Shown here: piece by piece, positions 1 to 37,114 of the stretch
How the letters are laid out: each line of letters starts with the position of its first letter
Numbering within the stretch: position 1 is the stretch's first letter
Virus record (IMG/VR): IMGVR_UViG_3300046002_000907
Span: 1-37,114 of that record
Strand: one strand, 5' to 3'
Origin: a virus
DNA: 37,114 bases
Notes under the pieces: model-generated
Databases searched by the model: none
What the model was told of the DNA's origin: nothing
Seen by the model: the letters and a program-made list of their open reading frames with translations, nothing else
Program-made: the position numbers and the translations under genes

Positions 1-73
1 CCTCGTGCATACAATTCTTACCGCCTTTGCACTCGCCGCCCTTGCACTTAGGGCATGATTTCATACCTTTCAT
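1..73 (-). CDS. Cys-rich small protein, truncated by the window start
   Basis: Only the first 24 codons are present; the gene runs off the left edge. The visible N-terminus has the same CPKC and later Cys residues as the complete copy at 36106-36291. It starts with the ATGA overlap that ends the Lys-rich gene at 70-231. The truncation comes from where the contig begins, not from a mutation. Function is unknown; the CxxC pattern suggests metal binding. Confidence 0.6.
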   Translation of the reverse strand, partial: MKGMKSCPKCKGGECKGGKNCMHE

Positions 74-231
74 TTTTTAGCCTTTTTAGGTGGTTTTGCA
101 GTCTTAGCCGCTTGCTTGAAGTCGGCTTTAGTAGGAGCGCCCTTAGTACCTGGCTTATTCATCTTCTCGCCAGAACCCTCGGCTATGCGCTTACGTTTAG
201 CGGCAATATTGCTGTAGAGGCCGGGTTTCAT
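70..231 (-). CDS. Lys-rich 53-aa phage protein (left copy)
   Basis: A 53-residue, strongly basic protein beginning MKPGLYSNIAAKRKRIAEGS, followed by EKMNKPGTKGAPT and a tail of Lys/Ala/Pro. Small proteins with the GLYxNIxAKxKRI...GSGEKM pattern recur in phage genomes without a known function. It overlaps the DUF6496 gene upstream by ATGA and the Cys-rich gene downstream by ATGA, so translation is probably coupled. The right-end copy (36288-36449) differs only in its N-terminal third; the last 30 or so residues are the same. High Lys content hints at nucleic-acid contact, which is inference only. Confidence 0.65.
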   Translation of the reverse strand: MKPGLYSNIAAKRKRIAEGSGEKMNKPGTKGAPTKADFKQAAKTAKPPKKAKK

Positions 232-389
232 TTCTTACCCTTAGCAGCTTTCTTACCTTCGCTTATCATAATTGCAACTGCTTGTTTCTTAGACTTAACA
301 ACAGGGCCACCTTTACCAGAGTGCAAAGTACCTGCCTTAAACTCGTTATATACTTTGCTCATCTTTTTCTCGGTTTTGGTCTTCTTCAT
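228..389 (-). CDS. DUF6496-like small basic protein (left allele)
   Basis: A 53-residue Lys-rich protein with the core LHSGKGGPVVKSKKQAVAI and then an ISEG segment, the pattern of DUF6496 phage proteins (LHSG..GPVV....QAIAIALSE). Function is unknown. The start is preceded by GGAG about 9 nt upstream, inside the 3' part of the HNH gene, giving a 44-nt out-of-frame overlap. The right-end counterpart at 36446-36610 is 54 residues and clearly diverged outside the core. This gene holds most of the difference between the two terminal copies. Confidence 0.65.
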   Translation of the reverse strand: MKKTKTEKKMSKVYNEFKAGTLHSGKGGPVVKSKKQAVAIMISEGKKAAKGKK

Positions 390-666
390 TTAACAATTCT
401 CCTAGCTGTAATTGAAGTTCCTGCTCAGTCACACCATAAGCCCTCTCAAAGGCTTTACGGCCTAAGCCGTGATAACCTGAGTTTCCTCGATGATGAGTCG
501 GGCATAACGGCAGGACGTTATCGTGCGAGTTCCTTACTCCCATCCCAAGACCTAAGCCTCGGATATGGTGAATCTCAGCAGGTGTGCCAGGATAACCTGC
601 TCTATAGCAGATTATACAGCCAATGTCAGCAACTTTTGACAAGTATTGTGCTTCTCTTTTACGCAC
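346..666 (-). CDS. Ref-like HNH nuclease (left allele)
   Basis: A 106-aa protein with CIIC (residues 17-20), AEIHHIR (about 30-36) and LPLCPTHHRGN (about 52-62). This is the HNH/zinc arrangement of phage nucleases related to P1 Ref (DUF968-like). P1 Ref is a RecA-dependent nuclease; that this homologue shares the activity is inferred. Compared with the right copy (36540-36887), about 25 silent or near-silent differences produce one change (T/S in LCPxHHR) before residue 97. The two copies then have different C-termini because the end of the gene overlaps the divergent DUF6496 gene. Purifying selection on both copies is evident. Confidence 0.85.
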   Translation of the reverse strand: MRKREAQYLSKVADIGCIICYRAGYPGTPAEIHHIRGLGLGMGVRNSHDNVLPLCPTHHRGNSGYHGLGRKAFERAYGVTEQELQLQLGELLNEEDQNREKDEQSI

Positions 667-841
667 GATTTTTACCTTCTAGCCGCTTCTGAGCCAGCTT
701 TACTATGTGTTTTATCTGGTCTGGGTAGTAGTACCAAAGGTTACCGAATGACTGCAACCCAATTTCCTCAATATCCTGATCCGTTAACTTTCGCAAGGTT
801 AGCGGCAATTCGCTCTTGTCTAGCAAGGTTTGTTGGATCAT
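659..841 (-). CDS. 60-aa hypothetical protein (left allele)
   Basis: The protein begins MIQQTLLDKSELPLTLRKLT and contains a Trp-Tyr-Tyr-Tyr cluster near residue 36 and a basic C-terminus. No family is recognised. The near-identical copy at 36880-37062 differs by one residue (I/V). It overlaps the HNH start by 8 nt and the upstream zinc-ribbon gene by 74 nt in another frame. That is a long overlap, but both proteins look well formed and both are kept in the second copy. Confidence 0.6.
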   Translation of the reverse strand: MIQQTLLDKSELPLTLRKLTDQDIEEIGLQSFGNLWYYYPDQIKHIVKLAQKRLEGKNRA

Positions 842-1001
842 AGTCGGCGAATCCGTCTACGTCACCGCACTCTGGACACTCAGTGAGAGTATCTTCTGTA
901 AACGAGCATTTGCCTCTAGGTATCTCATCCCAATCGTCTATAAATCCGCATAAGCAACATTGAGCCAGATTGCTATCGTCAACTATGTATTTGTCGTTCA
1001 T
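768..1001 (-). CDS. Small zinc-ribbon protein
   Basis: A 77-aa protein with CCLC near residues 15-18 and CPEC near 43-46, an acidic middle, and the C-terminal stretch TNLARQERIAANLAK. Two Cys pairs suggest a zinc ribbon. Function is unknown. The start at 1001 is supported by AGAGGA 5-6 nt upstream. The C-terminal 41 codons reappear at the right edge (36989-37114), where the last residue is Cys instead of Tyr. Confidence 0.75.
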   Translation of the reverse strand: MNDKYIVDDSNLAQCCLCGFIDDWDEIPRGKCSFTEDTLTECPECGDVDGFADYDPTNLARQERIAANLAKVNGSGY

Positions 1002-1010
1002 ATTATCCTC

Positions 1011-1352
1011 TTATTGAGTTGATCTATCCAGACCTCTATTAGACGCTTCCTGTGAGCGCCAGACATCGATTCTAGCCTGTGCTGCTACCAACATCCACCT
1101 AAGCGTCTCTGCCTTCTCTACGGCCTCTTTAAGCCCGTCCAGCACTGCTAGATACTCTGGATGGCTGTAAGCATAATTATCCTTGTCGGCAATAGTGTTC
1201 CCCATTGCTACAGAGAACAACATTGCTTTCTTGCTTTTACGGAATTCTTCAAGGTAGGTAACCTGAGCCTTGGCCTGTGCGTATTCAGCAGAGTGCCGGA
1301 TCATGTAGTCGATAGCCTCATGGGGATTAATCTGTTTCATATTCGCAATCAT
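1011..1352 (-). CDS. Conserved phage protein of unknown function, 113 aa
   Basis: A mostly helical, charged protein. The segment MLFSVAMGNTIADKDNYAYS is followed by an HPEY motif and a C-terminal helix with the pattern LRWMLVAAQARIDVWRSQEA. This looks like a widespread phage/prophage protein family of unknown role; I recognise the pattern but cannot name a domain. The start could also be the Met at 1340; neither has a good Shine-Dalgarno. It is the first clear gene downstream (leftward) of the structured element at 1608-1711. Confidence 0.75.
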   Translation of the reverse strand: MIANMKQINPHEAIDYMIRHSAEYAQAKAQVTYLEEFRKSKKAMLFSVAMGNTIADKDNYAYSHPEYLAVLDGLKEAVEKAETLRWMLVAAQARIDVWRSQEASNRGLDRSTQ

Positions 1353-1572
1353 ATTTATTTAGAGTATAGGATAGGGCGAGGGGTTGATCTTTAACACCTT
1401 TCCCACACTGGCTAATCCCTCTCGGGGCTACATTCATCTTCCAAGGTGACCGTATCGTGGCCCAACCGTTCATCAACCGTTCTACCTTGTTTATGCAAGT
1501 ACCTGTAGCAAGTCTGCTGCGCCGCCCTATCAATATAGCGCACTCGGTTTTCTTGGCAGCAACCCCGAACAT
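1327..1572 (-). CDS. Weak 81-aa ORF in a mostly non-coding stretch
   Basis: The interval 1353-1607 has no convincing gene. One open frame on the minus strand could start at the ATG at 1572 (AGGA about 10 nt upstream) and end inside the next gene. Its product has scattered Trp, Cys and Arg and no motif I recognise. The longer version, starting at 1650, would run through the structured element and is less likely. This stretch could instead be the leader of the 1011-1352 gene. Confidence 0.25.
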   Translation of the reverse strand: MFGVAAKKTECAILIGRRSRLATGTCINKVERLMNGWATIRSPWKMNVAPRGISQCGKGVKDQPLALSYTLNKYDCEYETD

Positions 1573-1607
1573 GGGTTCATTCCTAACGCGACCAGTACGA
1601 CCTAGAC

Positions 1608-1711
1608 AATAAAAAAGCCCTCTAGGTTTGGCTCTCACGTGTAACGGCACGTCCCTTGCGGGTAAAGAACCAAAGCTAAAGGGCTTTGATTTTTTCTATG
1701 CCGTTACATAG
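1608..1711 (-). ncRNA. Structured intergenic element, copy 2 (candidate cis-regulatory RNA / attenuator)
   Basis: An outer stem pairs AAAGCCCT (1614-1621) with AGGGCTTT (1680-1687) and on the minus strand runs into TTTTTT. A second stem pairs TTTGG (1627-1631) with CCAAA (1670-1674). Inside are hairpin ACGTG/CACGT (1637-1641/1648-1652) with loop TAACGG, and CCC/GGG (1653-1655/1660-1662). Outside lies hairpin CTATG/CATAG (1696-1700/1707-1711) with loop CCGTTA. The two hexaloops are perfectly complementary, a possible kissing loop. CTCTCAC (1632-1638) and GCGGGTAA (1658-1665) are shared with the element at 5461-5564. The minus strand is chosen because leftward transcription crosses it. T-runs occur on both sides. 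Confidence 0.6.
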
Positions 1712-1720
1712 ACAATTAAA

Positions 1721-1885
1721 TTATAGACCATTATTTTGTTTTTGCAACGCCTTTAATTCAACTATTTTCTTCAATATAGGAATAGCCTTGCCTACAGGCA
1801 ACCTAGTTGCCAATTCCTCGTAATACTTGATCTGATCGCCAATCGGCATATCAGATACCTTACTTAGCAGCGTGTTGCCATACAT
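1721..1885 (-). CDS. Hypothetical protein, 54 aa
   Basis: A short helical protein starting MYGNTLLSKVSDMPIGDQI. An in-frame TTG start at 1903 exists, but the ATG at 1885 with AAGG about 9 nt upstream is preferred. It overlaps the end of the 1860-2285 gene by 26 nt. No family is recognised. It is the last gene of the replication block before the structured element at 1608-1711. Confidence 0.55.
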   Translation of the reverse strand: MYGNTLLSKVSDMPIGDQIKYYEELATRLPVGKAIPILKKIVELKALQKQNNGL

Positions 1886-2285
1886 AGTCGATAGCCTTAG
1901 CAAATTGCTTTCTTGTTAACGATAGCTGTAAGTTATCAGTAAGCACCAGACCATCGCCCACCTGCTTTAAATCGCTACCAGACAAGCCCCACTTGCCAGA
2001 CTTCTTATGTCTTTCATCTACCTTTAGCATGGCATCTAGCCCTATCCGTATATCCTTGGCCTGATCTTCCTTGCCATCAGCGTTAGCAGCCACTAACCCG
2101 ATATTAAGCCTTGCGACTATCGTATGCCAGCTCTCAACATCTCCGTAGCCCTCTCTTAGCTTCATTAGTTCAGCATGGGGAGCCAGTTGCAGGGCTGTTT
2201 CTGATTCTGCGCTATGCCTTATTGTCAGTGGTATCGTTCTTGGTACGTATCTTTTAGGTTTTCTTGGTTTCTTATTTGATGGCAT
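1860..2285 (-). CDS. Hypothetical protein, 141 aa
   Basis: The N-terminus is very basic (MPSNKKPRKPKRYVPRTIPL). It is followed by a helical region with ESWHTIVARLNIG near residue 51 and a C-terminal segment SLTRKQFAKAIDYVWQHAAK. The domain is not recognised. It overlaps the nuclease-like gene upstream by 14 nt, so it belongs to the leftward replication operon. The basic N-terminus suggests nucleic-acid or virion contact, but this is not demonstrated. Confidence 0.7.
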   Translation of the reverse strand: MPSNKKPRKPKRYVPRTIPLTIRHSAESETALQLAPHAELMKLREGYGDVESWHTIVARLNIGLVAANADGKEDQAKDIRIGLDAMLKVDERHKKSGKWGLSGSDLKQVGDGLVLTDNLQLSLTRKQFAKAIDYVWQHAAK

Positions 2286-2556
2286 TTTTAATCACGCTTA
2301 ACGCTTCCTCTATATTCCGAACAATAGCCGCCTGACCTTGCCAGTCTGCGTGCCAGATTATTTGTTGTGGTGTCAGCTTCCCATCACCCTCTTTAATTTC
2401 CATTAAGAAATTGTATTTAATGCCTTTGTTTGTATGACCTATTAGAATGTCAGGGCATCCCTCACCTACCTTATGCAAGTGCTGGACTGTGTAGCCCTCA
2501 GCTCGCAGGGCTTTCACAATCTCACTCTGGTTCTTGTCTACCCTGTAAGCTCTCAT
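2272..2556 (-). CDS. PD-(D/E)XK / VRR-NUC-like nuclease
   Basis: A 94-aa protein with CPDILIG (about residues 34-40) and LMEIKEGDGKLTP (about 51-63). The spaced PD...E-x-K signature is that of small PD-(D/E)XK or VRR-NUC nucleases, whose members include Holliday-junction and structure-specific nucleases. Its place among replication genes fits a role in recombination or branched-DNA processing; the exact substrate is inferred. It is joined to the upstream gene by ATGA. Confidence 0.65.
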   Translation of the reverse strand: MRAYRVDKNQSEIVKALRAEGYTVQHLHKVGEGCPDILIGHTNKGIKYNFLMEIKEGDGKLTPQQIIWHADWQGQAAIVRNIEEALSVIKNAIK

Positions 2557-2954
2557 TTAGTCACGTTCCATTGATTAGTGCGTTTTTGGGCATCCCAGTT
2601 TTCCAACAGAATACCGCCCTTTCTTCTATCAGCATTTGACTTCTTTTTTAACGTCTGGCGTTCAGATAAAACTTTGTCGCTTCTAAAGTAACACTCAATC
2701 CCATTCATCCAATCTAATGTTTTTATATCTTGGCTCTTATCAGTATCCCATAACCTATCTGCTAAAGGCTTCATATTGTTGGCAACCATAACCCTGACTT
2801 GTTCTGCCCAACCAATCTTTTTAGGGATACGTTTTAACTGTCTATCCATCAATTTAATATCGTAAGGAACAAGCCATTTCTCAAGCTCCGTCATACGGAT
2901 ACCAGCCCTGAAAGCCTTTATTAACATTGCGTCATATATTCTTTGCTTATCCAC
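2553..2954 (-). CDS. Hypothetical protein in replication block, 133 aa
   Basis: The start is GTG at 2954 with GGAG about 6 nt upstream, overlapping the end of the previous gene. The protein is basic, rich in Lys and Trp, with WLVPYDIKLMDRQLKRIPKK early and a Lys/Arg cluster (KKKSNADRRKGG) late. No family is recognised. Composition and operon position suggest DNA or RNA contact, but nothing in the sequence proves it. Confidence 0.65.
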   Translation of the reverse strand: MDKQRIYDAMLIKAFRAGIRMTELEKWLVPYDIKLMDRQLKRIPKKIGWAEQVRVMVANNMKPLADRLWDTDKSQDIKTLDWMNGIECYFRSDKVLSERQTLKKKSNADRRKGGILLENWDAQKRTNQWNVTK

Positions 2955-3171
2955 GCCAATCTCCTTTTATTCCCCTGTTTCCCTTAGCCCACTGCTCTTT
3001 GCAGTCATTGGCTAGTTTATCTGCGACTACATCACCTCGGGCTTTTCTAACCCTAGTTAGGTATTCAATAACCTTGTTCCTGTCTTCTGATCTCCAGCGT
3101 AACACTTGCCGGACTTCGCACTGGTGTCTGTGGTCTTCAACTGCATGAATTTTCAATGAAATTTCATCCAC
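2947..3171 (-). CDS. DUF7696-like small protein
   Basis: A protein of about 74-81 aa with CEVRQVLRWRSEDRNKVIEY and the C-terminal KGNRGIKGDWRG. This resembles a small conserved family of unknown function (DUF7696, recalled from memory, moderate trust). There is no ATG. The possible starts are TTG at 3192, or GTG at 3171 with AAAGG 8 nt upstream; I prefer GTG because it overlaps the helicase stop by only 8 nt. Confidence 0.6.
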   Translation of the reverse strand: MDEISLKIHAVEDHRHQCEVRQVLRWRSEDRNKVIEYLTRVRKARGDVVADKLANDCKEQWAKGNRGIKGDWRG

Positions 3172-4165
3172 TAAATCGGCCTTTGTTATCAAAATCCATC
3201 GGCATTAGCCCCAAATTCTCTACAAACTGCTGGCTTGCTGCGTTATACCAAAGACCGTACCATTCCTGAGCCTCACCATTACGCTGCTTCTCACACATTA
3301 AGTAAGCATCTGGCTGCGTCTCATCTACCTGTTCACCACGGCTCCTCATGTTCTCTTTCTTCTTATTTCTCCACATTAGGAACACATTGTCCACCTGATC
3401 CGAGATAGAACCTGAACCCTTCAAGTCGTTCTTGTTGGGCTGCTGTTCCTCGTTAACTAGCTTGCGGATATGGTGAACTAAGTGAATGTGTACCGAGTGA
3501 TCCCTAGCCAGTGCCGTTAGCTCGTCAATAAAGTTCTTCTGCCCATTAAAGTCATCCTCACCCTTAACGCACTTCATTAGACTGTCGATAAATATATGCT
3601 TTATGCCAAGCTCCATAGCGCAATACCTTGCCATAGCTATAACTTTATCGGTTGACGTTGTACCCTGCTGATCGTAAAGAAACAATTTGTCAGAAACGTA
3701 CCCATCAAATCTGACAAAAAGGTTGTTGATATATTGCTCACGGTCATTACTTAGCGGGTTGTCTATGTACTCACCAGAGAACTGCCTGACCATTCTCTCA
3801 AGGGTTTTCTCAGGCTTCATCTCAAAGCTGGCTATGCAAACCCTCTGGCTTTGACGGATCAGGTTCAAAGCAATCTGCCCAGTAATCAGCGACTTACCAC
3901 CACCGTTACCACCAGCGTAAACAGTGACCTCACCGTCCCTGAACGCAAAGCTAGAATGCGTCTTAGGCCAAGGTAATACTATCTTTGTTTCATTTTTGCT
4001 ATTTAAGTAATTATGCTTTATTACTTCAGACCATTCCGTAGCGCGTCTTACTTTTAACGTAACATCGTTAGCATGTAGATACTTCTCTACATCAATGACT
4101 TCTGACTTAATCAGTCTGGCTTTCCTAGCCTCGTCTAAATCTATTGCGCGATCTTCTAAGCTCAT
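3164..4165 (-). CDS. DnaB/RecA-fold replicative helicase
   Basis: A 333-aa ATPase with Walker A GGNGGGKS (residues 85-92), Walker B HIFIDS (about 190-195), a sensor-like HLVHHIRK (about 228-235) and GSGSISDQVDN (about 255-265). These are motifs of RecA-fold DnaB-type helicases. It lacks a primase domain. It should unwind the fork with the O-like initiator at 4598-5251. The ATG at 4165 is chosen because GAGG lies 5 nt upstream; the longer open frame would overlap the primase gene by about 100 nt. The protein is shorter than bacterial DnaB. Confidence 0.85.
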   Translation of the reverse strand: MSLEDRAIDLDEARKARLIKSEVIDVEKYLHANDVTLKVRRATEWSEVIKHNYLNSKNETKIVLPWPKTHSSFAFRDGEVTVYAGGNGGGKSLITGQIALNLIRQSQRVCIASFEMKPEKTLERMVRQFSGEYIDNPLSNDREQYINNLFVRFDGYVSDKLFLYDQQGTTSTDKVIAMARYCAMELGIKHIFIDSLMKCVKGEDDFNGQKNFIDELTALARDHSVHIHLVHHIRKLVNEEQQPNKNDLKGSGSISDQVDNVFLMWRNKKKENMRSRGEQVDETQPDAYLMCEKQRNGEAQEWYGLWYNAASQQFVENLGLMPMDFDNKGRFSG

Positions 4166-4172
4166 ATTGTCC

Positions 4173-4601
4173 TCAATTAATATAATTAGCTGCTTCGTTG
4201 ATTCTTTCAAAAGCCGTTTTAAGCCGTTTTCTATCGGTGTCTGATACCTGCCTACCCTCGGATAAATCAAACGCAGCCAGTGACGTTAAAAGTGCCTCAA
4301 AATGGATTATTTTAAGCAGGTCTGTCGCATAAAATGGTCTACGCTCAGGTTTTTGTCGCTGATTGTCAATTGAGTAACCAAGTTTGTTTTCTTTAGGAAA
4401 CAAGTCTCCGATGTCCATTCCGACAGCAGCAACTACTTCGTAAGCAGAACAACCACCAAAGCACTTGAGCAGAATGCGACCATCGTCAAGGTGAGTGATT
4501 GCTAGGCTAGGGCTTCTGTCTTCGTGAGCAGGACAACAAGCAGTCCACCGGCCTTTGGAGCCTTTAACTTTTTCTAAGCGGTTAAGTAGATTGCCGATCA
4601 T
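4173..4601 (-). CDS. Primase-type zinc-binding (CHC2-like) domain protein
   Basis: A 142-aa protein with RWTACCPAHEDRSPSL (residues 19-34) and LLKCFGGCSAYEV (about 45-56). These supply the Cys/His zinc ligands of DnaG-family primase N-termini, followed by VGMDIGDLFP. The family normally continues into a Toprim catalytic domain. Here only a Lys/Arg-rich helical tail follows, and no Toprim motif is seen here or nearby. It may guide the host primase or act as an accessory factor. It overlaps the O-like gene by ATGA and precedes the helicase by 7 nt. Confidence 0.8.
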   Translation of the reverse strand: MIGNLLNRLEKVKGSKGRWTACCPAHEDRSPSLAITHLDDGRILLKCFGGCSAYEVVAAVGMDIGDLFPKENKLGYSIDNQRQKPERRPFYATDLLKIIHFEALLTSLAAFDLSEGRQVSDTDRKRLKTAFERINEAANYIN

Positions 4602-5251
4602 AGTGCGCGTCTCCCCATATTCGTTACGTTAGTTGTAGTCGCTGATATTTCGTCTTCCCAACGTTTTGCATTAAGCCATGTAGAGGCATGAGGGACAAAT
4701 TGAATATCTCTACTAGGTAAGCCTTGATGATTAATTGCTTTAATCAATATTGCCAAAAACTCATCATTCATTTTTAGCTTTTTAAAGGCTTTCCAAGCTG
4801 GATCTTTTGCTGTCTTCTTTGGATAGCATTGCCAGAACTTAACGAAATGCTCACTATATTCTCTGGTAGTCTCTGTATTTACAGTGTTATCGCAAGTCTT
4901 TCTTTCTCGATCTTGCAAACTTTGCGAGATGGTGTGGTCAAGAAATTCATAGTTCAAACGGTAGTACAAAGTGTGATCCCAAGGGCTTTTGCTCCTTTTC
5001 TCAGCGATCAAAATACCGTCTTCACGAAGACCTTTAAGAATAGAAAAAATTGTCCTTTCAGACCAAAAAGGAAACTGCTTCCTCCACTCAGGGATGGTGT
5101 TATATACCCACGAAAACCCATCATCCGCAACGTCTAACTTACGTGACCAGTATTGAATCTGCTGAATTACAATTGCCTCGTTTAAACCATATTTGACAGC
5201 CAATGATGGTAAAACGAGCAGAGGATACTCGTTAATAAGGAGATTACTCAT
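4598..5251 (-). CDS. O-like phage replication initiator
   Basis: A 217-aa protein. The N-terminus (MSNLLINEYPLLVLPSLAVK, then AIVIQQIQYWSRK and ERTIFSILKGLREDGIL) is a winged-helix domain typical of phage replisome organisers. The C-terminal part has FWQCYPKKTAKDPAWKAFKK, found in O/DnaT-like proteins. It should bind the origin and load the helicase (inferred). The ATG at 5251 is used instead of the one at 5266, because GGGGTGG precedes it and it overlaps the previous stop. No iteron array typical of an O-bound origin was seen inside the gene. Confidence 0.75.
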   Translation of the reverse strand: MSNLLINEYPLLVLPSLAVKYGLNEAIVIQQIQYWSRKLDVADDGFSWVYNTIPEWRKQFPFWSERTIFSILKGLREDGILIAEKRSKSPWDHTLYYRLNYEFLDHTISQSLQDRERKTCDNTVNTETTREYSEHFVKFWQCYPKKTAKDPAWKAFKKLKMNDEFLAILIKAINHQGLPSRDIQFVPHASTWLNAKRWEDEISATTTNVTNMGRRAL

Positions 5252-5444
5252 CTTCCACCCCTTCATTCCAAGCTAACTCAATCTCATCTTTGTTCTTAAA
5301 AACCCAATGCTCAATTCTTGAAAACTGATCCAAAGTGAGAAAAATACATACTGGCTCACCAAATTCAATAGCATCCTGTCTTATCCCAATCTTGCCGCCA
5401 ACAGTTATAAAAACTTCAACAGCTTCAGTTCCCTTGATTTCCAT
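5244..5444 (-). CDS. Hypothetical protein, 66 aa
   Basis: The product begins MEIKGTEAVEVFITVGGKIG and contains a Phe-Gly-Glu-Pro-Val turn; it looks like a compact beta-rich domain with an acidic end. No function is recognised. An upstream in-frame ATG (5456) abuts the T-run of the structured element, leaving no room for a ribosome site. The ATG at 5444 has GGAA about 8 nt upstream and is preferred. This is the first replication-operon gene after that element, so its expression is the likeliest to be controlled by it. Confidence 0.6.
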   Translation of the reverse strand: MEIKGTEAVEVFITVGGKIGIRQDAIEFGEPVCIFLTLDQFSRIEHWVFKNKDEIELAWNEGVEDE

Positions 5445-5460
5445 AGCTTTTTCCATAAAA

Positions 5461-5564
5461 AAAAGCCCTAGGAGAGACTCTCACCAATTAAGGTGTTGGC
5501 AGACTGGCGGGTAACCAGCAGAGTCCCTTCTAGGGCTTACCCATAAACGCGCTGCCAAGCACGC
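5461..5564 (-). ncRNA. Structured intergenic element, copy 1 (candidate cis-regulatory RNA / attenuator)
   Basis: A 12-bp outer stem pairs 5463-5474 with 5527-5538 (core AAGCCCTA/TAGGGCTT). On the minus strand it runs into TTTTTTTT just before the 5244-5444 gene, like an intrinsic terminator. Inside are GACTCT/AGAGTC (5476-5481/5520-5525), CACC/GGTG (5482-5485/5492-5495) and CTGG/CCAG (5504-5507/5515-5518) with loop CGGGTAA. Beyond the stem, CTGCCAA (5552-5558), in the loop of a short GCG/CGC hairpin, is complementary to TTGGCAG (5496-5502) inside. CTCTCAC (5478-5484) and GCGGGTAA (5507-5514) are shared with 1608-1711. One inner pair is G-U on the plus strand and A-C on the minus strand, so strand choice is not settled. 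Confidence 0.6.
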
Positions 5565-5569
5565 AATTA

Positions 5570-5668
5570 CTATACTTTAACTCCCCTAAGCTGGCAAGTC
5601 CTGCAAACATTAGCGTCCTTAAACTGCATATTGCTGCGAGACCGCTTGCATCCTGGACATACTTTCAT
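5570..5668 (-). CDS. Tiny zinc-ribbon protein, 32 aa
   Basis: This short frame encodes MKVCPGCKRSRS, then a spacer, then CRTCQLRGVKV. The two CxxC pairs, spaced as in zinc ribbons, make chance unlikely. It starts 10 nt after the upstream gene's stop and ends just before the structured element. The Shine-Dalgarno is poor (GGG directly before ATG). Function is unknown; small zinc ribbons often mediate nucleic-acid or protein contacts. Confidence 0.5.
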   Translation of the reverse strand: MKVCPGCKRSRSNMQFKDANVCRTCQLRGVKV

Positions 5669-33458: not shown

Positions 33459-34583
33459 TTAATCATTAGTCAATAATACAGCCTTTTTGCCCGTGAAGTC
33501 TTCCCATCGCTTTACTATTACATCGCAGAACCTTGGATCAAACTCCATTATGTATGCGGTAATGTTGTGTTTTTCTGCCGCGATAAGAGTACTTCCACTT
33601 CCACCAAAGTAATCTGCAATGGTCTTTGCTGACAAATTAAAGCGCTTAATTATCCATTCCATTAATTCAACCGGCTTTTGTGTTGGGTGAACTCTGTTTG
33701 TTTTTTCAGATGCTTTGGTAAATTGCCTAACAACACTTCTAAAATTTGCCCATGCAAGCTCGCAATCTGTCTGGTCACTTTGACCATTGTTCTTATCCCA
33801 TACCAACCAGCATTCGCTATCTGGCAATGCGGAGCAGTAATAATTTGCCCCCCACCATATTTGCTTTGCTTCAGGATACATTCCATAAATCAACCTGAAT
33901 GAGTCTTTAGCAACATCTGGTGTGTCATCTCCCAAAATATCAATTTTATAATTTTTCTTTAAAACAGAAGATTTTGATACTGCATTCATTCCGTAGGGCG
34001 GGTCTGTATGAATCAAATCAGGATATACGCCATTCATCAGTTTCTCTACGGCATCAATACTCGTACTATCCCCACACATCAACCGATGATTGCCAAGTTG
34101 ATAAATATCACTTAGCTTAGTAACTGGCTCATCCGGTATATCAGGAACAGCATCCTCATCCGTTAGCCCGTCTACCTGTTCAGGCTCCAGCAGGTTATCT
34201 AGCTCTTTTGGATCAAAGCCAAGAATATCTAAGCTGAACCCAGCTTCCTTCAGGTCAGAAAGCTCTAACGTTAGCATTGACGTATCCCAACCTGCGTTCA
34301 TCGCTAATTGATTGTCAGCAATAACATAAGCCTTCTTCTGGCTTTCAGTCATATGCGCTAACTCAATTACAGGAACATCCGTCTGGCCTAGCTTTCTTGC
34401 AGCCAATAACCTGCCATGCCCGGCAATTATCCCGTTGGTTCCGTCTACTAATATGGGGTTTGTCCAGCCGAATTCTTTGATGCTGGCTGCTATTTGGGCT
34501 ACCTGAGCGTCAGAATGTGTACGGCTGTTTCTGACATAAGGGATGAGTTTCTCAACCGCTACTTGTTTAATTTGCACTTGCAC
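33459..34583 (-). CDS. ParB-like/DNA methyltransferase fusion
   Basis: A 374-aa protein. Residues 1-95 are a ParB/Spo0J-like domain (IPYVRNSRTHSDAQVAQIAA; GIIAGHGRLLAARKLG, 51-66). Residues about 160-370 are a beta-class N6-adenine or N4-cytosine methyltransferase: HTDPPYGMN (192-200), HPTQKPVELMEW (299-310), and DYFGGSGSTLIAAE (324-337). It should methylate phage DNA, likely against host restriction; ParB probably helps target it. Fusions of this type are common in phages, placed beside terminase genes as here. Confidence 0.9.
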   Translation of the reverse strand: MQVQIKQVAVEKLIPYVRNSRTHSDAQVAQIAASIKEFGWTNPILVDGTNGIIAGHGRLLAARKLGQTDVPVIELAHMTESQKKAYVIADNQLAMNAGWDTSMLTLELSDLKEAGFSLDILGFDPKELDNLLEPEQVDGLTDEDAVPDIPDEPVTKLSDIYQLGNHRLMCGDSTSIDAVEKLMNGVYPDLIHTDPPYGMNAVSKSSVLKKNYKIDILGDDTPDVAKDSFRLIYGMYPEAKQIWWGANYYCSALPDSECWLVWDKNNGQSDQTDCELAWANFRSVVRQFTKASEKTNRVHPTQKPVELMEWIIKRFNLSAKTIADYFGGSGSTLIAAEKHNITAYIMEFDPRFCDVIVKRWEDFTGKKAVLLTND

Positions 34584-36109: not shown

Positions 36110-36291
36110 TTCTTCTTCTTTGCTTTGCTCTTGGCAGTACGGGAACCGCGCATCGGCAGAGATATTTCAATCTCAATCTTGCCATTTTTACCGTTCTTAC
36201 CGTTCTTTTCTTCTTTTTCCTCGTGCATACAATTCTTACCGCCTTTGCACTCGCCGCCCTTGCACTTAGGGCATGATTTCATACCTTTCAT
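36106..36291 (-). CDS. Cys/Lys-rich small protein, 61 aa
   Basis: Starts MKGMKSCPKCKGGECKGGKN, has CMHEE next, then a Glu/Lys/Gly/Asn-rich stretch (EEKNGKNGKNGKIEIEIS) and an all-Lys end. The CxxC and nearby Cys may bind metal. The tandem Gly-Lys-Asn triplets are low complexity. It starts and ends in ATGA overlaps. The first 24 codons recur at the left window edge. Function is unknown. Confidence 0.6.
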   Translation of the reverse strand: MKGMKSCPKCKGGECKGGKNCMHEEKEEKNGKNGKNGKIEIEISLPMRGSRTAKSKAKKKK

Positions 36292-36449
36292 TTTTTAGCC
36301 TTTTTAGGTGGTTTTGCAGTCTTAGCCGCTTGCTTGAAGTCGGCCTTAGTAGGAGCGCCCTTAGTACCTGGCTTATTCATCTTCTCGCCTGAGCCAGCAG
36401 CTATACGCTTTTGCTTTGCATTAATATTGGCATAGAGACCTGTTTTCAT
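36288..36449 (-). CDS. Lys-rich 53-aa phage protein (right copy)
   Basis: The protein begins MKTGLYANINAKQKRIAAGS and then matches the left copy (70-231) exactly over EKMNKPGTKGAPT and the Lys/Ala/Pro tail. N-terminal changes (K/P-x-GLYxNI region) fall where the divergent core of the repeat begins. ATGA overlaps at both ends suggest coupled translation. Function is unknown; the conserved pattern recurs in many phages. Confidence 0.65.
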   Translation of the reverse strand: MKTGLYANINAKQKRIAAGSGEKMNKPGTKGAPTKADFKQAAKTAKPPKKAKK

Positions 36450-36610
36450 TTCTTGCCCTTCTTCTTAGCCATGCCAGCTTCGCTAAGTGCAATTGCGACC
36501 GCCTGTTTCTGAGACTTGACCACTGGGCCGCCCTTACCGCTATGCAGCTCTCCCTTGCCGAACTCCCTCATAACCTTGGCTACCTTCTTCTGGCCTTTGG
36601 TCTTCTTCAT
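36446..36610 (-). CDS. DUF6496-like small basic protein (right allele)
   Basis: A 54-residue protein with GELHSGKGGPVVKSQKQAVA followed by IALSEAGMAKK. It shares the LHSGKGGPVVKS core with the left allele (228-389) but differs at many positions on both sides. Its first 71 nt overlap the HNH gene in another frame, giving the two HNH copies different C-termini. GGAG lies about 9 nt upstream of the ATG. Function is unknown. Confidence 0.65.
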   Translation of the reverse strand: MKKTKGQKKVAKVMREFGKGELHSGKGGPVVKSQKQAVAIALSEAGMAKKKGKK

Positions 36611-36887
36611 TTAACAATTCTCCTAGCTGTAATTGAAGTTCCTGCTCAGTAACACCGTAAGCCCTTTCAAAGGCTTTGCGACCTAAACCGTGATAGCCTG
36701 AGTTTCCCCTGTGATGGCTTGGGCATAACGGCAGGACGTTATCGTGCGAGTTCCTGACTCCCATCCCTAAACCAAGACCTCGGATATGATGGATCTCAGC
36801 CGGAGTGCCAGGATAACCTGCTCTATAGCAGATTATACAACCAATGTCTGCAACTTTTGACAAGTATTGTGCTTCTCTTTTACGCAC
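36540..36887 (-). CDS. Ref-like HNH nuclease (right allele)
   Basis: A 115-aa protein, the same as the left allele (346-666) to residue 97 except Ser for Thr in LCPxHHR. The catalytic pattern AEIHHIR...LPLCPSHHRGN and the Cys pair CIIC are intact. The C-terminal 18 residues are unlike the left copy because they are read through the diverged DUF6496 region. The true functional part is probably residues 1-95. Confidence 0.85.
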   Translation of the reverse strand: MRKREAQYLSKVADIGCIICYRAGYPGTPAEIHHIRGLGLGMGVRNSHDNVLPLCPSHHRGNSGYHGLGRKAFERAYGVTEQELQLQLGELLNEEDQRPEEGSQGYEGVRQGRAA

Positions 36888-37062
36888 GATTTTTACCTTC
36901 TAGCCGCTTCTGAGCCAGCTTTACTATGTGTTTTATCTGGTCTGGGTAGTAGTACCAAAGGTTACCGAATGACTGCAACCCGATTTCCTCAACATCCTGA
37001 TCCGTTAACTTTCGCAAGGTTAGCGGCAATTCGCTCTTGTCTAGCAAGGTTTGTTGGATCAT
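36880..37062 (-). CDS. 60-aa hypothetical protein (right allele)
   Basis: Identical to the product of 659-841 except Val for Ile in the DQxEEIG segment. It overlaps the HNH start by 8 nt and the zinc-ribbon gene by 74 nt. Its retention in both copies with few changes supports it as a real gene. Function is unknown. Confidence 0.6.
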   Translation of the reverse strand: MIQQTLLDKSELPLTLRKLTDQDVEEIGLQSFGNLWYYYPDQIKHIVKLAQKRLEGKNRA

Positions 37063-37114
37063 AGTCGGCGAATCCGTCTACGTCACCGCACTCTGGACAC
37101 TCAGTGAGAGTATC
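36989..37114 (-). CDS. Zinc-ribbon protein, truncated by the window end
   Basis: Only the last 41 codons and the stop are inside the window; the complete gene is at 768-1001. The CPEC pair and the TNLARQERIAANLAK tail are present. The last residue is Cys here and Tyr in the left copy. Truncation reflects the contig end. Confidence 0.6.
   Translation of the reverse strand, partial: DTLTECPECGDVDGFADYDPTNLARQERIAANLAKVNGSGC

Follow-up and report, generated by a model that had tools for sequence, protein, structure and literature searches.

A family of phage RNA elements with covarying kissing loops at the heads of operons

Two related structured RNA elements, here called copy 1 and copy 2, are encoded in the IMG/VR virus record IMGVR_UViG_3300046002_000907, which was analysed over its whole length of 37,114 nt (the window). 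An original prediction made from the letters alone had proposed them as a candidate new phage RNA family with compensating pairs, and both a new family and a new fold are strongly supported by the covariation presented here, with no match in Rfam. Each element opens with a 5′ hairpin (P1) whose loop is complementary to bases enclosed by the following long stem (P2), and a U-run follows that stem. As for function, the reading that we favour, at about even confidence, is that each element acts in cis as a 5′ leader and gates an operon as a conditional terminator.

For both copies the minus strand is the relevant one, as a promoter-like site precedes each fold and a U-run follows the stem. The sigma70-like promoter of each copy ends 4-7 nt 5′ of the fold, and the P1 stems have 5-6 bp. 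Compared with shuffled sequence, the minus strand folds with z −4.4 for copy 1 and z −6.9 for copy 2, and in both cases 0 of 200 shuffles were as good. The parts of copy 1, which belongs to what we call type A, are the following.

5569-5597, minus strand: promoter of copy 1, −35 TTGCCA (5597-5592), 17-nt spacer, −10 TATAGT (5574-5569)
5548-5563, minus strand: P1 hairpin, 5-bp stem CGUGC/GCGCG, 6-nt loop UUGGCA (5558-5553)
5539-5542, minus strand: 5′ segment of pairing K2, GGGU in the linker between P1 and P2; its partner is ACCC (5512-5509) in the P3 loop
5465-5536, minus strand: long stem P2, 5′ arm 5536-5520, 3′ arm 5481-5465, enclosing P3 (5518-5504) and P4 (5495-5482)
5496-5501, minus strand: target of pairing K1, single-stranded UGCCAA between P3 and P4; its partner is the P1 loop
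5457-5464, minus strand: terminal U-run, read from the sequence

P2 of copy 1 carries a conserved mismatch near mid-stem and contains a three-way junction with P3, UGCCAA and P4, and GGGCUUUUUU follows the stem at the 3′ end. Copy 2 (type B) holds a true kissing pair, in which both 6-nt loops (UAACGG and CCGUUA) are complementary throughout.

1720-1747, minus strand: promoter of copy 2, TTGCAA (1747-1742), 16-nt spacer, TATAAT (1725-1720)
1695-1712, minus strand: P1 hairpin, UCUAUG/CAUAGA, loop UAACGG (1706-1701)
1614-1686, minus strand: long stem P2, enclosing P3 (CCC/GGG, 1662-1653) and P4
1637-1652, minus strand: P4 hairpin, ACGUG/CACGU, loop CCGUUA (1647-1642), the complement of the whole P1 loop
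1611-1616, minus strand: U-run, read from the sequence

The outer AGCCCU/AGGGCU stem and the minus-strand T-run after it, both named in the original prediction, were present on re-reading and refolding, and the two 7-nt complementarities that it listed (UUGGCAG/CUGCCAA and GUAACGG/CCGUUAC) are exact. It had described the pairing of a segment outside the stem with one inside; this stands, with the refinement that a hairpin of its own on the 5′ side carries the outside segment as its loop, which makes the interaction a kissing or loop-linker pseudoknot. The shared UUACCCGC, spaced 29 and 26 nt from GUGAGAG (start to start, minus strand), does occur in both copies and is variable among relatives, so it is not the core of the family; the ACCC within it belongs, in copy 1, to the P3 loop and pairs with the covarying upstream segment. 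Not part of the prediction were a promoter for each copy, a second pseudoknot (K2) in copy 1 and a structured domain of ~250 nt after copy 2.

Further homologues with covarying pairs, which the prediction had called for in phage and metagenome contigs, were found in numbers. A first pattern built from the two copies led to five further contigs in IMG/VR, and more loci were reached via the surroundings of the helicase gene, the P2 3′ arm, the region downstream of copy 2 and a 113-aa protein described below. A scan for the fold only (a 5′ hairpin, a long stem enclosing an exact complement of the 6-nt loop, and a U-run) gave 142 matches (84 distinct sequences) in its first round and, with more loci and wider loops, 184 matches (96 distinct sequences) in related phage contigs, which belong to a freshwater phage group; dinucleotide-shuffled loci gave 1 match per 2.64 Mb, and the window itself just copy 1 and copy 2. 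The same plan recurs in the divergent types C (L073, L079, L106, L147), D (L068, L070) and E (L074), and further forms are found in MW202545, MW202484, MW202573, MW202520 and MW202674. Among 25 related records, a type-A covariance model (R1) detected its type in 19 and a type-B model (R2) in 10. R1 found copy 2 in the window weakly (E 0.02), and R2 reached D and C members (L070, 4e-6; L079, 2e-3; L285 and L073, 5e-3), which links types B, C and D by sequence and structure; type A is tied to these by architecture and, weakly, by sequence.

The pairings themselves carry the argument, and we regard their covariation across the sequences as decisive for the family. Standard pairs make up 99.7% of cells across 56 distinct type-A sequences, a value that falls to 37.7-45.0% once the partners are shifted by 1-3 columns; both-side changes occur in 17 of 40 pairs, in 183 cells compared with 50 in shuffles. 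In the same set K1 is 100% paired with both-side changes in three of its six pairs, and K2 is 99.6% paired with such changes in all four. The pattern by which most type-A members were retrieved prescribes the P2 3′ arm and the U-run and leaves K1 and K2 outside; of the 77 distinct type-A contexts retrieved without these two pairings, all 77 have an exact K2 and 72 an exact K1, the five misses being three parser errors and two weakened pairs. For type B, full loop-loop complementarity is seen in all 16 members with a readable P4, with 6-nt loops opposite 6-nt loops and 7-nt opposite 7-nt; these make up nine distinct loop pairs, and none of the 36 cross-pairs is complementary. The twelve type-B members found by their downstream domain alone all have K1 (judged by eye). 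Kissing sequences also differ among modules in each of the 24 loci that hold at least two.

Comparison with known RNAs gave no counterpart. Neither element matches any of 4227 Rfam families at the gathering threshold, and relaxed thresholds returned chance matches alone at the elements (trpB, E 2.8). The copy-1 3′-arm pattern had 0 matches across 84,980 genome species, the module scan found nothing in HK022, P22, BcepC6B and AP1, and its one weak match in BPP-1 has a poor promoter and lies inside a structural gene. Our literature search found structures described for put and for GOLLD/ROOL, and no description of a kissing-loop leader element. An HDV-like ribozyme topology was also considered and rejected, as the P1 loop and the junction are at odds with its defining features.

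Where the modules lie suggests what they do. All 77 distinct type-A contexts have a −10 hexamer 5′ of P1, as a rule 3-6 nt away, and an ORF start codon follows the U-run by 0-17 nt in 76 of 77. In the window, copy 1 is at the head of the replication operon, which begins with this gene:

5244-5456, minus strand: first gene of the replication operon, with in-frame starts at 5456 and 5444 and GGAAAAAG immediately 5′ of 5444

Since the interval between U-run and start codon has no room for a promoter, the downstream genes must be transcribed through the terminator; a leader position and passage through the terminator are thus supported by the sequence layout. Promoter followed by terminator is the order of an attenuator, unlike that of an operon boundary, and the other marks by which an attenuator would be recognised, a start codon at most 17 nt past the U-run and an intrinsic terminator with a stable stem and U-run, are likewise found, the latter from sequence alone. 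Of the three functions originally offered, attenuator, riboswitch and HK022 put-like site, the first is the best supported because the terminator stands between the element's own promoter and the operon start codon. A metabolite riboswitch should have a core common to all members, and this idea is not supported, as types A-E share a fold and no core sequence.

The genes behind type-A modules form six unrelated clusters, including YdaU/DUF1376-like replication, HNH, ParB-like and DnaD-like proteins (Pfam supports some of these labels; DUF1376 and DnaD rest on N-terminal sequence and, for the window, PHROGs). Modules head replication genes in types A and E and in MW202520, and others head HNH genes or long noncoding RNA (ncRNA) domains. 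Type-B modules stand directly before HNH/NUMOD4-like, homing-endonuclease-like genes at L022 8636 and, as a second copy, at L169 9984; the first type-B copy of L169 precedes a long domain. That promoter and terminator are kept while the following gene changes is best explained by a cis-acting leader.

Under this reading, transcription would start at or a few nt from P1, which would fold before the rest, and its loop would then capture the complementary bases in the apical region of the hairpin that follows (K1), to which copy 1 would add K2, from the linker to the P3 loop. The result would be a compact pseudoknotted fold whose closing stem P2 and U-run may serve as an intrinsic terminator right before the operon, so that downstream expression would depend on read-through. 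Copy 1 would gate the replication operon, and copy 2 the second structured RNA domain with the genes that follow. The kissing fold might set the efficiency of termination, or it might be recognised by an antitermination factor, which could be a phage protein, a host factor or RNA polymerase.

The same genomic site can hold a different RNA. L032 and L079 have the Rfam int-alpA RNA (RF02996) at the type-A site, as do L039 and L080 when judged by position, and RNAs similar to int-alpA occur in L010, L015, L028 and L030; all eight lie at ~4-5 kb. Among 45 loci with a conserved primase start, 35 have type A, seven have an int-alpA-like RNA instead and three have neither. Int-alpA and our elements both lie directly after a promoter and directly before the first replication gene, and both are branched hairpins with a loop that pairs elsewhere; a position upstream of phage replication or alpA genes, as expected of int-alpA, is also that of the elements, the two occupying the same site in relatives. 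They differ in that int-alpA has a core CUAG...CGAAAAG...CCUGCC and no 5′ P1 hairpin, that its loop pairs downstream rather than upstream, and that several int-alpA members lack a U-run; the elements have no match to the RF02996 model at gathering or at E≤10. In all eight int-alpA and int-alpA-like RNAs examined, a hairpin loop has an exact 6-7 nt complement 19-35 nt downstream, in six different pairs (~0.05 expected per sequence by chance), which from the sequences we take to be an undescribed covarying pseudoknot. This replacement supports a leader function at the type-A site.

Several observations weigh against a conditional terminator. In type A, the P2 3′ arm and the U-run are conserved partly by construction, and there is little variation in P2 as a whole. 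Two type-B members (L028, L033) have an interrupted U-run, and four int-alpA-like leaders at the type-A site lack one, so termination may not be the function shared there. No alternative antiterminator hairpin was found, and the search for a universal factor found none, the 113-aa protein being the only one common to the window and six module phages.

It is possible, though we consider it clearly less probable than a cis-acting leader, that the elements are stand-alone small RNA genes, each giving a ~105-nt terminated RNA whose target in trans would be a protein, RNA polymerase or a further RNA, with read-through incidental. Promoter and terminator do make up a complete transcription unit, the unit of L073 is inverted relative to terL, and the long form in L106, L147 and L165 ends in a terminator of its own. 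Against this, 76 of 77 contexts have an operon start codon at a distance of 0-17 nt from the U-run, before six unrelated genes, and the exposed loops are engaged internally, with no conserved unpaired seed region seen.

Antitermination of the HK022 put kind, in which a pseudoknotted 5′ RNA modifies its own RNA polymerase to pass terminators, the built-in one and later ones, without a phage protein, we regard as unlikely. Put itself acts in cis through the β′ zinc domain of RNA polymerase. The position does agree: putL is likewise the first part of an early transcript, one structured RNA per operon, modules are found ahead of the replication operon and of a later unit, and the int-alpA-like leaders without a U-run at the same site would suit it. 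The fold does not: put is ~70 nt, with two stem-loops in a V and an RNA triplex and with neither a kissing pair nor a terminator, whereas the elements are ~105 nt, with P1, a three-way-junction terminator built in and kissing pairs, and HK022 gave no match in the module scan. The late leader of lambda and P22 (pR'-qut-tR') shares the plan, with a promoter, a short leader, a terminator and an operon (P22 annotation); that of P22 is shorter, the scan of P22 was empty, and none of the window's proteins was identified as Q-like.

Slightly less likely again, the kissing pairs could be intermolecular and build RNA dimers or rings, as in the phi29 packaging RNA (pRNA) or the ROOL/GOLLD cages. GOLLD/ROOL are phage RNAs with covarying kissing loops. 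So is phi29 pRNA. Both kissing halves lie in one molecule, the paralogues are orthogonal and the long forms are large structured RNAs, all of which would fit; linker and helix lengths, estimated by hand, appear to allow intramolecular pairing, copy 1 precedes replication genes rather than packaging genes, and the elements differ from those RNAs in being short, in leader position, with a terminal U-run and no Rfam match. Least probable is an ordinary terminator or RNA-processing or stability hairpin whose tertiary pairs merely aid folding; this would account for the very stable stem-loop with its U-run, but ordinary terminators do without a covarying 5′ hairpin, a pair of pseudoknots and a promoter of their own within a few nt.

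More tentatively than for the gating itself, 5′-terminal kissing-loop leaders may be a widespread phage class, sequence-orthogonal in each genome, that places an RNA-built gate before replication, homing-endonuclease and long ncRNA units, with type A and int-alpA filling one leader role interchangeably and modules of the copy-2 type heading an undescribed phage ncRNA of ~350-400 nt. To our knowledge, no attenuator design has been described in which a 5′ hairpin kisses into the following terminator through loops that are free to change and always matched, and we know of no function for int-alpA RNA. A module before unrelated genes, with an int-alpA-like replacement at one site, gives int-alpA a testable function, and it points to the beginning of phage replication operons as a recurrent site of control. 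As matched changes can be made in both partners of a loop pairing, the mechanism is directly testable.

Copy 2 differs in what follows it, the copy-2-type module usually being at the head of a second structured noncoding domain, behind which lies a protein gene.

1361-1604, minus strand: conserved structured noncoding domain 3′ of copy 2 (long domain), with the covarying long-range stem GAUAGGGCG/CGCCCUAUC
1011-1352, minus strand: gene of the 113-aa protein, following the long domain; its relatives in other phages are located in the nin region

The long domain (~250 nt in the window, ~250-350 nt in relatives) has covarying stems and frame-breaking indels and was found after a copy-2-type module in the window, L106, L147, L165, L198, L200 and L201; the long RNA of L106, L147 and L165 (~400 nt including the module) closes with its own strong terminator. 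It has no significant Rfam match, and blastn of copy 2 with the long domain against GenBank phages returned no match; with the long domain of L106, blastn led to MW202545, MW202484 and Acidovorax phage AP1. In MW202484 an annotated hypothetical protein (33533-33892) overlaps module and noncoding domain and is probably not a real gene.

The 113-aa protein is the sole window protein also present in L106, L147, L165, L201, MW202484 and MW202545, of which L201 was fetched with this protein and is not an independent case. In Vibrio and Manatee Spring phages its relatives adjoin genes for replication or for NinG, and a search of genomes gave seven contigs of metagenome-assembled genomes, mostly betaproteobacterial (Limnohabitans, Rubrivivax), no more than a hint at the host, which is probably a betaproteobacterium from fresh water.

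The ends of the window (1-900 and about 36,215-37,114) are near-identical and hold diverged copies of a Ref/HNH-like gene, which indicates a circularly permuted genome. The leftward order is small genes, copy 1, the replication genes, copy 2 and the ~250-nt noncoding domain, then the 113-aa gene, small genes with the Ref/HNH-like gene, methylase/ParB, and the portal and structural genes. In relatives, a module with its noncoding region also lies beside terL, at L073 12018 (minus strand) in the orientation opposite to L068 6445 and L070 11252 (plus strand), as if it were a movable cassette. The promoters of L103, L106, L147 and L198 combine perfect −35 and −10 hexamers with a 19-nt spacer and possibly need an activator.

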